64,000 nucleotides of DNA. It comes from Polytrichum commune (Eukaryota; Streptophyta; Polytrichopsida; Polytrichales; Polytrichaceae). The translations under genes and the position numbers were made by a program. This document shows positions 17,408-36,378 of this stretch, piece by piece (position 1 is the stretch's first letter; each line of letters begins with the position of its first letter). The stretch covers positions 54,954,758 to 55,018,757 of the forward strand of contig OX485805.1 in NCBI GenBank assembly GCA_950295325.1. The letters are read 5' to 3'. The notes beneath the pieces are model-generated. The model saw only the letters and a program-made list of their open reading frames with translations. It ran no database searches and had not been told where the DNA came from.

Positions 17408-20400
17408 CTACTTGGGTCTCAAAACCACTTCCACTCCATGCTCATTGTAGTGTTGCCTCACCAGCTGTAACAGTAGCACCATATTTCTGGAAGAATCACC
17501 TACATTAATGAGCGCCTGGAATGCTGTTCTGAGGGAAAATTCTGACTCATTATTTTCGTCGAGCTCAGGATAGCTGCTTCCTCCACCAGATGAGCTTGGT
17601 GTAGGCACAATACTACCCTGTCCTGGTGGACACTCCCACTGAAGGGGTGTTCCAGATGATGTGGAAATAGCAATTGCGGCTTGGTCGATGGAAGGGATAT
17701 GGGTCATGCCTGGATGAAAGCCTGGAATAGTATTAGGGTCACCCTGGGTTATGAGTGAGTCGGATGGCACTTCAAAAGGGAAATTAAGTGGATCAGAAAC
17801 TGATGGAGCTGATCTCTCCACTTGATCACTACCATCCATTAGCTCTACTAGTCTCTCTGTCCAGTCATCCAGATCGACCATTCCTGGATCTACTTTAGGA
17901 GTTTCTGAAGCCCATTCCAGTCTGTTATGGTCTATTTCACCTGTGTTCACATGTACCTGAGAGAATTGGTAGTTTGGTAGTGGCATATTGGCAGCACCCA
18001 ATCCTCCATATGTTGTTGGTAGAGAGGCAGAGGTCATCTCTTGTAGAGGACTCGTATGGAAAGTTGATGAGATTTCACTAATTCTGGTAGGTGGTGCATT
18101 TGGAGGTAGAGATGTTGTGGTTTCGTCAATCTGTCCAAGAACACACATTCAAATTTAGACTACAGAGACATCTTATTAACAAGATTGAAGTATAGGATAA
18201 GTCCCTTTTAATGAGGGACTTCAAGAGTTTCTGAAGTCCATTCTAGTTTGTTATGGTCTATTTCACATGTGTTCACAAGTACCTGAGAGAATTGGTAGGT
18301 TGGTTCACAAGTACCTGAGAGAATTGGTAGGTTGGTAGTGGCATGTTGGCATCACCCAATCCTCCATATGTTGTTGGTAGAGAGGCAGAGGTCATCTCTT
18401 GTAAAGGAATTCTATGGAAAGTTGATGACATTTCACTACTTTTGGCAGGTGGTGCATTTAAAAGCAAAGATGTTGTGGTTTCGCCAATCTGTCCAAGAAC
18501 ACACATTCAAATATCAGGCTACAGAGATACCTTATTAACAAGATTGAAGTATAGGATAAGTCCCTTTAATGAAGGACTTCCTTGGTTTCAGATTCCCTTG
18601 CCTGAAGATAGAATCCCAGTGTGGTAAGCGAGAATCAAGGAAATCCCAAATGAAAGCGAAGTATCCTTCGTAAAAACATTGAAGATTTTATGATTCAAGA
18701 CTACCATATTGAGATCTAGGGTGTCGAATAAGGGAGAATCTAGTGGTTATTGAAGCAATCCCTGTAACCAACATTTTTTGAGGAAAACCCTAGTAACCCC
18801 AAGGTTGTGCTCTATAATCTCCCTAGATTACAAAGGAAAAATTCTCCGAGATTTTTACGACTATGTTACGCAAACCAGTAGATGTCTTAGAATAGCAAGC
18901 TCACATTCTTCATGGATTTCATACCATGTAAAAAACAAGACAACATTCTTAAACCCCTAATGGCCTCTACGTCCCAAAATGGGACTCTCCAACTCAAATG
19001 ATCGTATGTTGCTCAAAAGTAGTTTCAACAATCATTCTACGAAATTTAGTTTATGAAATTGTCCATCATCTACAAAAGCTTGTTCAATGAAGTTTTATAA
19101 GTGGTTAATTTCCTTTATAACTCATGAAGGGCTCACCTCTCAAGAAACAATTTGACAAATCCATCACTTCAAGTTAGAGAGAAAAGAAAGATGACTCTGA
19201 TGGTGCCACCGGCATGAATTATGATGTAATTTGCTTCATTTTCAAGTTGGTTTAGATTTATATATTAAAACTTTGAAGTAGGCGTTATGAGAATTAGAGG
19301 TCCTCTAATGACTACTACCTCCTTTTGAAGATGAACAACGGCCAACACCTATCTCCCACCAAAGACGAGCCCCTAGGTACCCACATGGTTGCTTGACAAT
19401 ATCCATCACTTGAAGATCATAATATACTATGCTTGCCAATCCCCCACCAATCTATAGGATCTGTAGTTTTAGCCAATCATGCCAAGTTTTGCATGTGATA
19501 GGATTTCAAAACATTGACTTCTAGAGTCATTACGGGAGGACCAAAGGAAGTTGTTGTATTTCTAACGATAAGATGTGATCCTTTGATACTAGTGCCTGAC
19601 AAGTTTTCCTTGTCTGATAACACATCTAAGCATCTTAGAAAATGCTTTATCCCTCAGGCCTTTCAGGGTTGATGTGCATTGGGTAGTCTGAGTTCATGAG
19701 CCCATCCAAATGAATCTGGAGACACACGGGAAGCATGTCTCCGATTGCCTCCAACCCCTGGCCAATTACATCCCCTCTCTCTCTCTCCTCAATCATTACG
19801 AACTGAAATCTAATTGCGAACTTCGGTTTCTAGGAAGTTTTCCATCACCACAATAGATCCCAATAGGATGTAATAGATCATCGCAATAGATCAACATACC
19901 TAAGCTCAAAAGAATACAAGGAATACGGATTTAGGTCACACCTCCTTAACGCCACCGATGAACGCTCGTGGCGCATTTTCCTGTGAAGCAATTCCCTGTT
20001 CAAAGCAAAGTCGACTCTCCTTTGGTCTCAAAGAATGCGCTGTCCAGCTACCCTGAGATGTTGCTGAAATTATATTTTGTGTAGGCACATCATCACGATC
20101 CACTTGCCCCTTCCTGATGAATTTCTCAAACCCTTTTGGTGGTACGAACTCCCAGGAGTCTTCAAAGTTGAGAGGAGTGTTCTTTCCAGCATAAATGGCA
20201 GCCACATCGTAAGCTCGGGCAGCTTCTTCGCGCGTGCCAAAGCACCCAATGTGCGTTTTCTTCTTCTCCTTTGGAAGCTTGATCTCAGCAATCCAAGGAC
20301 TCTTGGCCCTTTCCGACCGACAACGTACACCCTTGAATCGTCGTGGAAGTTCAGTGCAAGATGTGAGATGCTTCCATGAACTTGCCGCCGAGTGTTCAAT

Positions 20401-21078
20401 CTTCCATGACCTTTTGATGCCTCTCCTCACTGCCGACCCTGTAGTCACGGGTTCATTTACAACCAGCTTGTGGATTTCAAATTTAATCACTGATTCAATA
20501 TTACAGCCTGCGTGGTCCCTATAACTCTCAAGTGCCGTGTAAAACGAGTGGAGAAGAAATGTGAGACGCACTCTGCTCTCAATCCCTATTACGTTGGAAC
20601 AGGACCTGCTTAATAGATACGGGAACGAAGGATGCGCACAATCCTTGTCTTGATCATAGCATGAAATCTCTCGATATGTGAGTATGTGTTGAGGGTAGCT
20701 GGACACTGGACGTTTGCAATACACGGGATCCTCGCCCTGAAACAAGACGGACGTTTCCCTGTCACGAGTCTCCTGACCATTAATCCTAGTTTCAGAATTG
20801 ATGTCATCGACCTTTTTCACAGTAACACGCATCGTTTTGATGAAATAAGCTGAGTGTGAGGATAATTCGAGGAATATTTCATTCAAGGCCAGCACTGTTG
20901 CCTCTAGACTGGGGTACAGAGTTCCAGCATCTTGGAGAACCATGGCTTGTAATAATTGATGTATGGCCACTGCGGCTTGGCCCTTAAATTCACTACGTAG
21001 ATCACCAGCAGTCAGTAGAAGAAGCTGATTAATGATTTTCAAGCCCTTGCAATTGTTCACTAAGTTCAGCACATGCAA
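17408..21078 (-). CDS. AP2/ERF-domain transcription factor, at least two exons, 5' end unresolved
   Basis: The upstream exon on the minus strand (open frame 21078 down to 19942) encodes one AP2 domain at 20343-20155 with GVRCR, WIAEI, GCFGTREEAARAYD and PLNF motifs. AP2 domains bind GC-rich DNA in the nucleus. A seven-residue SERAKSP segment sits where most ERF proteins have a short turn, and a Cys replaces the usual Arg/Gln after GVR. The exon ends AAG-GAG with a GT donor at 19941. It joins in phase 0 to an acceptor before 18130, and the last exon runs 18130-17408 (241 codons including stop). That exon is Ser/Pro-rich and acidic in places, as in activation regions, and ends with LLLQLVRQHYNEHG. 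The frame starts after a TGA with no usable ATG before the KTMRV methionine, so an upstream exon is likely. If the 19941 donor is unused, translation stops at 19936. Confidence 0.8.
17900..18580 (-). repeat. Tandem duplication of the final-exon start
   Basis: Copy one (17900-18225) and copy two (18226-18580) are close tandem copies covering the acceptor and first part of the last AP2/ERF exon plus flanking intron. Copy two also carries a perfect internal 32-bp duplication (18272-18303 and 18304-18335), which shifts its frame. As a result copy two reads to a stop (…NSLRYL) unless it is spliced at one of its GTACTT donors. Using the first donor, at 18314, it forms a 174-nt phase-0 exon, 18488-18315. 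Confidence 0.85.
18581..19941 (-). other. Probable intron of the AP2/ERF gene
   Basis: Lies between the donor at 19941 and the acceptor side at about 18490. No coding motif on either strand. Contains a CT-run near 19780. Confidence 0.5.
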
Positions 21079-30968: not shown

Positions 30969-31053
30969 GTAGTGGACAGCGAATTATTTTTTGGCGATTT
31001 ATCGTTATTTGTGCTATCACTAATGGGCGTGTACGAAATGCCCTTTAATAAGT

Positions 31054-31091
31054 GGGCAGATCTAGGCGTTTGAAATCGCCTAAATCTGCCC
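31054..31091. repeat. Subterminal hairpin of the hAT element
   Basis: GGGCAGATCTAGGCG pairs with CGCCTAAATCTGCCC at 14 of 15 positions around an 8-nt loop, about 75 bp inside the left terminus. Confidence 0.85.
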
Positions 31092-31114
31092 CTACTAGCC
31101 GTCCATTAGTCGCC

Positions 31115-31213
31115 GCCCTCCCGTCTTCGCCCTCCCGTCGCCGCCCTGCCCTCCCGTCTTCACCCTCCCGTCGCCGCCCCGCCCTCCCGTCTTCGCCCTC
31201 CCGTCGCCGCCCT
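31115..31213. repeat. 33-bp minisatellite, three units
   Basis: Three near-identical 33-bp units (starting 31115, 31148 and 31181) made of GCCCTCCCGTCTTC and GCCCTCCCGTCGCCGC blocks. Blocks of the same kind reappear at about 31935-32000, so the array may have expanded on both sides of the leader intron. Confidence 0.9.
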
Positions 31214-31310
31214 CCACCGATTCGAATCCGCTCCGTCCCGCCTTCGCCCACCTTCGCTGCCAACAACTCCATCCCTTCACATCCATCGCAACAACCTCAC
31301 CGTACATAAG

Positions 31311-31560
31311 GTGAGTGTAGTTGCATTCATTCTCCATCCAATTTGCCCACATCGCTACCCTGCAATTGCTTGCCCAGTTGCCATTGCCAACCCCCTCGCC
31401 TCGGGCCTCCAGATCTGATAGACAGTGCCTTGCAATGTTGCACTGTTGATGGGAACCGCGATGAGAGGCTCTTCAATGCATGCTTGTGTTAGGTAGGATT
31501 TCTTGGGTTTTGTTGTGATTTGCTATCACTAATGGGGATGGATTTGAATTTTGGATGCAG
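31311..31560 (+). other. Probable 5' UTR intron of the hAT transposase
   Basis: A strong donor, ATAAG followed by GTGAGT at 31311, and an acceptor GGATGCAG ending at 31560 would remove a leader intron. Inferred from splice-site quality only. Confidence 0.45.
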
Positions 31561-31619
31561 AGGAGGCGTAGTGGTCACTGGTGAGGGTGGCGGCGTGAGA
31601 GTTATGGCTGCGAACATGT

Positions 31620-31935
31620 ATGTGCCGCTTTGTGCTCGCTTTGTGCTCGCTTTGTGCAGTTTTGTGCATCTTTGTGCTGGGTTCGCTGTATCCTTGTGCA
31701 TCTTTGTGCATTTTCTGCCACCTTCGCGGTGCATCTTTGTGCCGCCTTCGCTGGCCATCGTTGCATTGTTGTGCCGCCTGCCTTCGCTGGCCATCGTTGC
31801 GTTGTTGTGCCGCCTTCGCGGTGTATCTTTGTGCCGCCTTCGCTGGCCAGCTTTGCGCCTTCGCGCCTTCTTCGTGCCTTCGCGGTGCATCTTTGTGCCG
31901 CCTTCACTGGCCATCTTTGCGTTGTCGCCGCTTCG
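31620..31935. repeat. Degenerate GC-rich repeats in hAT leader
   Basis: Recurring phrases TTTGTGCCGCCTTCGCTGGCCATC and TTCGCGGTGCATC, imperfectly iterated. All forward frames are open across much of this, giving Cys/Leu/Arg-rich translations that are compositional rather than a real protein. Confidence 0.75.
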
Positions 31936-32083
31936 CCTTCGTCGCCCTCCCGTCGTCGCCCTCCCGTCTTCGCCCTCCCGTCACCTTTGCCCTCCCGTCG
32001 CCTTGCTTCGCTGGCCTTCCTACCGCGCTGCCCTTGGCCTTCCTTCGCTGCGTTGCCTTGCATCTTTTGGGTTCGCTTCGAAG

Positions 32084-35000
32084 ATGGCTCCAGGGCATTC
32101 TTCCACCCCGAAACGGCCAAGTTTCAAGCAGAGGGTGTTGCTCATAACACCTACTGGAGACTTGTCCACTGCGGCAATGGTGGATGTCACTGCCAACAAA
32201 TCCGATGGGGCAAGCTTGGGGGACTCCTCCTCCACCCCAGCGCCCAGGGCCTCCCCATCCCCAGCTGCATCTGCCGACATTGGGGGTTCTCAAACCACAG
32301 TTGATGCTCCGGAGATTGGTGGAGACACCGAGCTCATCCCCTCCGTGCAGAAGGTGCCTTCGAAGCAACGGAAAGCTGCAAAAAGAAGGTAAGTTTGCAA
32401 TTTGCTCCTCTTTGTTATTCATCGCTTAATCAAGCAAATGTGCATCCATCTTGATTGAAGTTCTTCATGCTCAACATAAACATGGAGCAACCTGATTCTC
32501 AATGCAGGGACTGCCTTCGTTCTCAGACTTTTGCTCAATGCTTTCGAGTGAGATTCTCAAAGTATGTGACCTAATTTCTCAAGTATGCATGTGATGAAAT
32601 TACAGTGCATGGTTGGGTAGAGTTATAGGAAGTATCTATTTCCATAGCCATTTTGTTCATAATTGTTGGAACTCATATGTTTATCTGATAATGTGCAATC
32701 TCCTTTGTACTGTCATCCTGGGTTCTTGTTGGAGTATATTCACAGAACTCTACAACTTTTATGGAGGTATTTGTTTCCATATGACTCAATAAGTGCTGTC
32801 ATGAAATAGTTCTTCTAAGACCTATCTTGCTACAAATTCTGTAGTTTGGGGACAACCTGTATCAGTGACTTAGGTTATCAGTGTCAATCCATTCAATGGC
32901 GTTGCTGTCATGTGTTTCAATGAATGCGGATTGATGTATCTCAGAGTTTGATTTCGTAGACCATGCATTCTTTGATTGCCTTATGTCAAGGTGTGGGAAA
33001 ATGGTGTCTGTTCGGTTGTAGCTTTGTTGATAGCTTTCAGAGCTTCCTATTCATAACCAGGGATTTATGCAATGAGTGGCTTGAGTGTCATTGAGCATTT
33101 CAAAGTTAAGAACCGGAAAAACAGAGGAAAATAGTGTTGTGACTCTGAAGTGCAAGTGAGTTTAGGTTTCAAGTTTCCTCTGCTGTAGACACAAACATAG
33201 TGACTATTGACTGCATGCGAAATCAAGTTAGTTTTAAAGCCTTCGAGCTTAGTCATGCTCTCAGAGGAGCTGCTGAGTATGTCAATCACTGAATTGTAGC
33301 AACCAAATTGCTATCTATGTGTAAATTGCTATCTATGTGTGCAGATTCCAGGACACTTGGCAAGCCAAGTACCCTTGGTCAGAGCAGGATGCGGAAGGTG
33401 ATGGCAGATTTGAGAAGGTCAGGTGTGTCATTTGCTCGAAAATCAATGGTAGGGATAAGATTCTTGATGCTAAAGATGACAACTTGAAAAAACATCAGGG
33501 TTGGAAAAAATGTGTCTCTGATATGCCTAACATGAAGTTGAAGAGGGGGGAGTGGTATTGGGACTTGAACTCCACCCACAAGCGCGCTGAAAGGGCATTT
33601 GCTGCACTACCAGCGGGCGACATTGCCACAATGGTTGCAGCAGGGGCTCCTCCCAAAAGGAAGGAGGTTCAAATGGCTGTCATCTTCCACTTGCTGCAAT
33701 TCGGGAGGCCAATGACCGAGTATCCTCCCATGAAGGAACTCTTGCAATTCCTTGGTGTTCCTAAGGTGAAACTCTAACCTCTTCTAATTTCCAGTTTTTC
33801 CTTTTTTTCCCATTTTTTGTTGCAACATTAGCTTTGTTGATAATGTGCTTTGAATGGCTTTGTAGGTTCCATTGAAGCATTGGACCGAGGGTGCGGGTTG
33901 GGAAATGGGTGAGAGCTTGCTTAATGTTGTGCAAGCCAAGACAAAGGAAATAGTAAGTGCTGCCCCATATTTTTCAATCAGTTGTGATGAAGTAACAACG
34001 GTGGACAACCAATCTTGGATTAGTATTCATGTGTACACAATTTCTGATTGGGAGAGAGTGCCCTTGCTTCTGTCTTTGGAACGTGTGATCGAGGGTGGTT
34101 CAGCTGAAAGCATAACTAAGATTATTCTTGGTGCCCTTGATAAACAAGGTGGGCTAACCCCCCAGCAAATAAGAGATCGGTTCATGGCCTTTGGGGCAGA
34201 TGGTGCTTCGGTCCTACAAGGCAAGAGGAATGGTGTTACTAACAGGTTGCAAGTCTCTCATGCGCCACACATGCAAGGCATGCATTGTGTGGCACATCGA
34301 AGCAACCTTGCAGTGCAATGTCTATCAGATCTGGAGATGGTGAGTAGGATAGAAACCCTACTGGCAGCCCTGCACAGGTATTTCAGCAAGTCCCCAAAAC
34401 GTCATTTGGAGCTCCAAAAACTTGCTGAGTTGCTTGAGACAAAGGGTAGGAAGATACTTCAAAATGTGAAAACTAGGTGGATCAGTATGTTAAGTCCTTT
34501 GCAACGTGTTTTATCCGAGTACCGCACTCTTTTGGTGAAGATGTATTCGGATCAATTTGTGAAACCGGTAATCACAGCTGCCAAGGTAAACTATGAACTC
34601 TTGGCTGACATCAAATGTTTGTTGACAATGGCGGCGGTGGTGCCCCTTCTTGAGGCGGTAAAGGCCTTGGTTGTCTTTGCACAATCACCCTCAGTATATG
34701 TATGTGATTTCACAAGGGCTTTGGATCTTTGCATACAAGATGTGCATGACTTGTACTGCTCTGAGAAAGCATTCACTTCTGATGCATTTGCATGCTTCAT
34801 TCGGATTACTGAGCTTTCTCATGATAGCATTCGCTTGAGGTGGCATCCGGATGTGAATGATTGTGTTGAACATTTAGTCTTCGAGGCCCATCTTTCTACT
34901 TCAGCGGGCTCACACCTGAATGCTACTTGCATTGATCCTCAAACTTCGATGAGGACCTTCGTAACAAAAGAATTATTTGACATCACCATTTCAGGAGTGA

Positions 35001-35865
35001 AGGCTGAGGTTACAGGTTTGTTTCTCTAACTCTTTTTTTTTCATCTTCAATGCACTTGGTAATTTCCTTTGTTAAGTTCTGCTCTTTGTTTACATGCTTG
35101 TAAGTTGTGGGTCTAAAGTATTGGTGGTATGCTTGCAGAGGTGGCCGCAATGATGGTAATGGAACTGCAGAGCAGGTTTCCACCAAGTGAGGTGATGGAT
35201 GCATTGTCAATTGTGTACCCTCAATTTTGGATTGAGCCAGGGCATGAGGACAAGCTAACATGTCACATGAACACTTTGAAGGCTACATTTTGTGTGCCCA
35301 AACAGATTTCTAGCACTCCATTAGAGTATGAAACTAGCCCACCACTGTTGGATGCAGCTGCACTTGATCGGCAACTGCACTGGTTCAAGGTGGCCATGGT
35401 GAACAATTCCGAGCATGCAATGCGTGCATTGGACTTGAATGTTCATCCCATAACGAAGGTTTGGCGTAATTTTGCACAATCTGGTCCGTTGAGGGGGATG
35501 TTCCCCGAGTTCTTCAAGCTCGCAGAAATTGCGATGATTCAAGTATGCTGATTTTTGGTTCTTTGCTAATTTTTAGTTCTTTGCTGATTTTTTGTTCTTT
35601 GCTGATTTTTGGCTCTTTGCTGATTTTTTATATGTGTTTGCTTCACACCTTGCAGGTTCTTGGGAGTGTAGAGGATGAAAGAACATTCTCCAATGTTGCT
35701 TTCTTGAAGAACAAACTCCGCAATCGATTGACAGAGCACTTGCCTCTTGTTACCACTATGTTTGCACAAAAACACTACACTTTGACTTCATTCCCTTACA
35801 AGGAAGTTGTTTCGGATTGGAGGGGCTTAAAGCCAAAGCGGGGTAGATATGCATTGGGTGTTTGA
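32084..35865 (+). CDS. hAT transposase with BED-type zinc finger, 5 exons, intact
   Basis: Exons 32084-32388, 33345-33765, 33866-35015, 35139-35542 and 35656-35865 join in phase across four GT-AG introns, giving 829 aa without a stop. The start ATG at 32084 is the first after the repeat-rich leader. Residues 1-100 are Ser/Pro/Ala-rich and probably disordered. A BED-type zinc finger follows at about 102-160, with an FQDTW..KYPW lead and ligands Cys129, Cys132, His152 and Cys158. The catalytic region has SCDE (Asp283), FGADGAS (Asp354), CVAHRSNLA (Cys383, His386) and a TRW block, as in hAT RNase H-like transposases. The last exon is the C-terminal dimerisation signature, DERTFSNVAFLKNKLRNRL, with Glu768 the likely third acid. 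It lies inside paired termini with a TSD, so it is a mobile-element gene rather than a domesticated host gene. Confidence 0.93.
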
Positions 35866-36378
35866 TTCACATAGAATGATTTACAATGGAAACTTATTTA
35901 GGGGGTTTTTCACACTTCTTAGAGCATTCAAATTTCAGAGTAGAAGCAACTTATTGACTCCAAAGATGATTTACGCCAATTCACATGGCTAAATGGCAAT
36001 GTATGCCTATTATGAATGAAGAAGTGTTTTCCTCCTATATTTTTTGTGTGTCATGGTTTCAATTTCGCATAATACATGCTACATTTCATCCATGAAATAG
36101 CATCATTGAATTATGTTTTTTTTTGCACCTAGCTGAATTTCTCCCGCCTTTTCAATGTTATATCGCATGTGTAATGATTTGCTCACATGGAAATATAGTG
36201 CCAAATGAAACTAAACCTTCCCTCATATTCGCAAAATATTATACTGAAATATATGCCCAAATAGGCTCCAACACGTCAATCACATTCAATAAAATAGTTA
36301 CTTCACCTCCAAGGTAAAATTGAAAAATAGTTACTTCACCTCCAAGGTAAAAGTGAAAAAAAATTCGCTGGTAGTGGA

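Follow-up and report, generated by a model that had tools for sequence, protein, structure and literature searches.

Elements of the hAT superfamily end in the pattern YARNG. Passages of PMC3942097 put hAT terminal inverted repeats (TIRs) at 10–25 bp and hAT length at about 2.5–5 kb, and passages of PMC10368747 and PMC2803484 give the target preference of Hermes as nTnnnnAn. The BED-type zinc finger of Hermes is described as CCHC. Here we analyse a 64-kb stretch of the genome of the moss Polytrichum commune (contig OX485805.1, positions 54,954,758 to 55,018,757; hereafter the window), within which a transposon of 5394 bp spans positions 30977–36370. It is very probably an autonomous hAT-like cut-and-paste DNA transposon, with a spliced five-exon gene for an 829-amino-acid transposase. 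This kind of transposon is already well known, and the window element belongs to a small family in which several copies are unbroken and nearly identical. The reading is based on the ends of the element and its target-site duplications (TSDs), an open frame, near-identical insertions, selection between subfamilies, a target preference and splice junctions supported by comparison with intronless relatives.

Ends, transposase gene and genomic copies

In the window there is one occurrence of the 9-mer CAGCGAATT and one of AATTCGCTG, its complement, precisely at the two ends of the element, and a perfect 8-bp TSD lies outside them (Table 1). The TIRs, at 15 bp, fall within the hAT range; set against the length range given above, other copies with both ends measure 4.7–6.7 kb. 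The first 134 bp at the 5′ end are identical in copies L009 and L010, and the subterminal hairpin, folded from the window copy, was equalled in stability by none of 200 shuffles; the hairpin stretch is present with few changes in the six copies compared (window and L009–L013). Gaps of at least 5 bp between the window element, L009 and L010 are confined to the GC-rich leader, which holds most of the length differences, or to the 33-bp repeat at the 3′ end, one unit of which is absent from L009. The leader carries repeats of CCCTCCCGTC... and TTTGTGCC... at window positions 31096–31233 and 31600–32070.

The five exons join into 829 codons and a stop, and all introns are GT–AG. This intron model finds support independent of RNA, because intronless relatives align free of gaps across the splice junctions. 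L029 and L030 have a single-exon frame of 795 amino acids, 42% identical to the window protein, and their alignment with the spliced window protein shows no gap at any of the four junctions, the nearest gap lying about ten residues off the exon 3/4 junction. The splice dinucleotides are preserved in the ten mapped copies of groups A and A′ (L009–L018). L029 and L030 apparently represent an intron-free sister family of the window transposase; a search of the stretches retrieved for them revealed no ends flanked by an exact 8-bp TSD. Having both ends and an uninterrupted transposase frame, the window element is built as an autonomous transposon is.

The protein presents, in order, CxxC..H, D283, D354, a CxxH stretch, TRW and EDERTFS. 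These motifs are largely invariant among five aligned sequences, the exceptions being the finger and the R of TRW, and the candidate acids D283, D354 and E768 are the same in all five. C129, C132 and H152 are common to the window protein, L016 and L023; L023 has alanine in place of C157, and in L029 the first cysteine is missing as well. The original prediction, made from the letters of the window, had described a complete element with termini and a perfect 8-bp TSD, a subterminal hairpin, and an 829-amino-acid transposase free of stops, with four predicted introns spliced out, all of which is confirmed. The zinc-finger ligands that it named held up at three positions but not at the fourth, C157, which is unconserved.

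Transposition would proceed from an 829-amino-acid transposase made from the spliced five-exon gene. Its N-terminal zinc finger may bind the subterminal region, and the protein would bring the CAGCG ends together. Excision would be the work of a DDE/RNase H-like active site, for which D283, D354 and E768 are candidates, and insertion would take place into an 8-bp staggered target of the type nTnnnnAn.

Copies were sought in the assembly, which comprises 407.8 Mb and includes seven contigs of 42–78 Mb; seven chromosomes would fit Polytrichaceae. A further contig, C8, carries psaA/psaB-type genes, and its PsaB scores highest against the PDB chains 8htu, 6l35 and 7ksq, from Physcomitrium photosystem I, which makes a moss likely. 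The whole-element DNA search, with 40 of 112 candidates scored, returned at least 73 matches. With exon 3, for which 107 of 630 candidates were scored, there are at least 113 matching segments, several of which may share one locus, at identities down to 34%. The closest group (A/A′) consists of 11 copies, the window element and L009–L018, at 93% identity or more in exon 3. Seven of these keep all 829 codons open (window, L009, L011, L013, L016, L017 and L018), L010 and L014 have one stop each, and L012 and L015 have frameshifts.

A TSD search at 20 loci found perfect 8-bp duplications at nine (L009–L013, L023 and L026–L028); L016 showed one too once its 5′ end had been fetched, giving 11 with the window element, each different. 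L014 matches at seven of eight TSD bases when its inner 5′ end is used, L015 has no exact CAGCGAATT, L017 is flanked by differing 8-mers and L018 is without its 5′ part. No TSD pair was found in the end search for L019–L022, L024 or L025. Relatives were also looked for in collections of viral contigs and genome contigs, which may lack records close to the genome of the window, and none was confirmed.

Some copies have an irregular structure. L014 (C7:9839000-9844900) has a second 5′ terminus inside intron 1 that pairs with the 3′ end, and the first 11 bases of its outer 5′ end are unaligned. Intron 1 (32389–33344) is mostly unalignable between the window group and L011–L018, despite exons that are 93–99% identical, and L013 retains two pieces of it, of 181 and 165 bp; this mismatch suggests exchange or replacement of the intron. 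The subfamily B copies L024 and L025, which lie about 26 kb apart on opposite strands of contig C6, differ by one change in exons 2–5. No TSD pair was found for either, so a single segment that was duplicated may account for both, in place of two separate insertions.

Relation to hAT transposons

The element is hAT-like, and its membership of the superfamily is probable, not proven. Membership rests on the TSD, the TIRs, a Hermes-like target preference and the order of the protein motifs. Among the 11 perfect TSDs, T stands at position 2 in eight and A at position 7 in seven, and while all 11 have one or the other, four have both (binomial P = 0.0003, assumed base frequency 0.306). The CAGCG ends conform to the YARNG pattern, and we take the order D, D, CxxH, TRW, ERxFS to be hAT-like. 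Compared with Hermes and the Ac group, the window element is like them in its 8-bp TSD, nTnnnnAn preference, short TIRs, putative zinc finger ahead of the presumed catalytic region and candidate D–D–E order. It is unlike them in that its protein has no detectable similarity to any solved hAT chain, and unlike Hermes in the unconserved fourth zinc ligand and in transposase length (829 amino acids, compared with 612 for Hermes). The hAT identity first proposed stands as probable, but protein sequence searches do not confirm it.

Homology searches weigh against the reading of the element as an autonomous hAT-like transposon, as do the signs of decay and silencing given in the next section. The whole window protein matched no Pfam family at E-values up to 1, and exons 3–5 gave only chance matches at E-values up to 10. 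NCBIfam, searched with exon 3 and L029 only, returned nothing significant, and neither sequence nor two profiles found a relative of the window protein in the PDB. As a control, the canonical hAT L036 of the same genome matches PF05699 (Dimer_Tnp_hAT) at 63.8 bits, and there are at least 150 PF05699 matches in the genome. One of ten relative fragments, L041, has a PF05699 match at the place expected for exon 5 (12.7 bits, cut-off 21.4), which we count as noise because it falls below the cut-off and its E-value is worse than that of an unrelated glycosidase match in the same fragment. None of four hhalign comparisons with one canonical hAT family of the same genome was significant. In Smith–Waterman alignment with canonical hATs, the window protein scored below the mean of 200 shuffles (z −0.45 to −0.76), L023 reached z −0.12 to 0.99, and L029 reached z 2.06–2.19, which 6 to 9 of 200 shuffles matched. 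By eye, the window protein and L036 are alike in the TRW motif and the layout of the C-terminal region; they are unlike in that the window protein has no Dimer_Tnp_hAT match and aligns no better than shuffles. A single-sequence structure model of exon 3 alone was uninformative (predicted local distance difference test score 36.5).

The absence of any sequence link to a hAT model or structure favours an element of another superfamily that merely resembles hAT, such as the P, Merlin or Zisupton-like groups, which also have 8-bp TSDs. Two of the four hhalign comparisons point the same way, their best, non-significant alignments falling on unrelated regions. The other two, equally non-significant and made with members of one canonical family, align at the TRW region; this, with the nTnnnnAn preference, the YARNG fit of the CAGCG TIRs and the motif order that we read as hAT-like, makes another superfamily improbable. 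The window protein may also resemble KIAA1586/ZNF862-like (DUF4371-type) hAT proteins in its FQxxW..FPW N terminus, CxxC..H finger, DGA..G..GV and CxxH..L. A literature search on KIAA1586 as a hAT transposase found no paper, and one on hAT transposons in moss genomes, including Physcomitrium, likewise found none, its matches for bryophytes apparently not dealing with a moss.

Mobility, selection and possible methylation

Recent mobility of the family is well supported by comparison of its copies, because near-identical ones occupy other sites with perfect TSDs of their own. Per 2490 exon sites, the window element differs from L009 at 9 and from L010 at 10 (about 0.4%), and L009 differs from L010 at 15. 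The strongest support comes from sister copies close to the beginning of contig C3, where L016, L017 and L018 lie at about 71–118 kb and 308–314.5 kb, within 245 kb. Over the whole element, L016 and L017 show 12 substitutions in 6527 aligned sites, two of them inside the frame, and 203 gap columns. The frames of these three copies are almost identical, with 1 to 3 changes per pair. The 5′ flanking 8-mer of L017, GTTATGGC, equals the 3′ flanking 8-mer of L018, as if a rearrangement had exchanged flanks; the 8-mer predicted for a swap by inversion was absent from the 3.66 kb upstream of the start of similarity in L018, and an inversion is unproven.

The ratio of nonsynonymous to synonymous substitution rates (dN/dS) is 0.105–0.116 between the window element and five subfamily B copies (exons 2–5), 0.22–0.40 between it and six A′ copies, and 0.7–1.0 within the trio of window, L009 and L010 (9 to 14 changes); L012, L015 and L027, with other frame lengths, were left out, and L019–L022 were mapped and too broken to compare. 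Between subfamilies the transposase frame is, by these codon comparisons, under purifying selection, with dN/dS of about 0.11, whereas copies decay after insertion, L010 already carrying a stop. This is the pattern expected of a transposon, with selection on the moving lineage and decay once inserted. An open frame and selection between subfamilies could be expected of a domesticated transposase gene that is no mobile element; this is very improbable and already contradicted by the multiple copies, which sit at different places and have ends and TSDs, and by the dN/dS of 0.7–1.0 within the trio.

Private substitutions point to silencing. Counted by two-to-one majority in alignment columns where none of the three copies has a gap, and with no correction for base composition, 30 of the 39 private substitutions in the trio are C-to-T or G-to-A (11 of 14 in L009, 12 of 13 in L010 and 7 of 12 in the window element), and all 12 differences between L016 and L017 are transitions. 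These two observations suggest that the copies have been cytosine-methylated. They also favour an intact but dead family, silenced and immobile, whose frame is open only through a recent last burst; this would be compatible with an autonomous hAT-like transposon and rivals only its current activity. The broken frames of L010, L012, L014 and L015 fit such a family, as does the finding that strong matches to the ends are confined to known copies, with no short derivative of the window subfamily seen. Matches to the 5′ 134 bp number 15, all of them in ten of the 11 known copies, and the eleven matches that cover most of the 3′ 501 bp with an identity of at least 96% are the same 11; weaker 3′ matches (68–87%) were uninspected, so that derivatives that are shorter, or that belong to related subfamilies, may have escaped notice. 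By contrast, the open frames of L016 and L017, which differ by 2 nt, speak for recent movement, and there are tissues in which methylated copies remain able to move. We regard a dead family as quite possible, just short of evenly balanced.

The likeliest history is a recent round of transposition by a family whose copies have by now become largely methylated. The original prediction had taken intact elements to be rare among the relics seen and the family to be perhaps still active, and had named a genome in which all copies were ancient and diverged as one refutation. Rarity is not borne out genome-wide, with seven of 11 A/A′ frames whole, and the genome search found near-identical copies rather than ancient ones only. 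As for activity, recent mobility stands, but current activity is unsupported: private changes are mostly C-to-T, and no empty site was seen, the joined flanks matching only the window's own two flanks and, elsewhere in the genome, one 53-base stretch at 85%.

Feature map, neighbouring frame and wider meaning

Table 1. Coordinates of the transposon's features in the window
Feature	Position	Strand	Remarks
5′ TSD copy (GTAGTGGA)	30969–30976	+	Perfect 8-bp match to 3′ copy
5′ TIR (CAGCGAATTATTTTT)	30977–30991	+	Pairs with 3′ end at 14/15 bp
Subterminal hairpin	31054–31091	+	Folded as DNA, −14.4 kcal/mol; z −7.24
Leader at 5′ end, GC-rich, short tandem repeats	31092–32083	+	Putative promoter/5′ untranslated region
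Transposase exon 1 (ATG)	32084–32388	+	Mapped also in L009–L018
Transposase exon 2	33345–33765	+	Putative zinc finger, candidate ligands C129 (33424), C132 (33433), H152 (33493)
Transposase exon 3	33866–35015	+	Candidate catalytic D283 (33986–33988) and D354 (34199–34201); CxxH, TRW
Transposase exon 4	35139–35542	+	
Transposase exon 5	35656–35865	+	Candidate catalytic E768 (35677–35679) in EDERTFS; hAT-like C-terminal stretch
Two tandem 33-bp units	36291–36356	+	97% alike; adjoin 3′ end
3′ TIR	36356–36370	−	15 bp, 14 paired
3′ TSD copy (GTAGTGGA)	36371–36378	+	

Elsewhere in the window, an open frame on the minus strand (19936–21078) has a weak AP2-domain match (E-value 1.9e-5; 25.3 bits, Pfam cut-off 33.3) and is possibly an AP2/ERF-like transcription factor.

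It is doubtful, though conceivable, that the element belongs to a large, recently mobile hAT-like clade beyond every public profile, such that profile-based annotation of mosses misses a whole lineage of DNA transposons. Such a larger clade would matter for annotation because the profiles tried do not see it. With well-defined, intact and young DNA transposons from a moss, transposon silencing could be studied in a haploid-dominant plant, and a young family of this kind could serve as a marker of new insertions.

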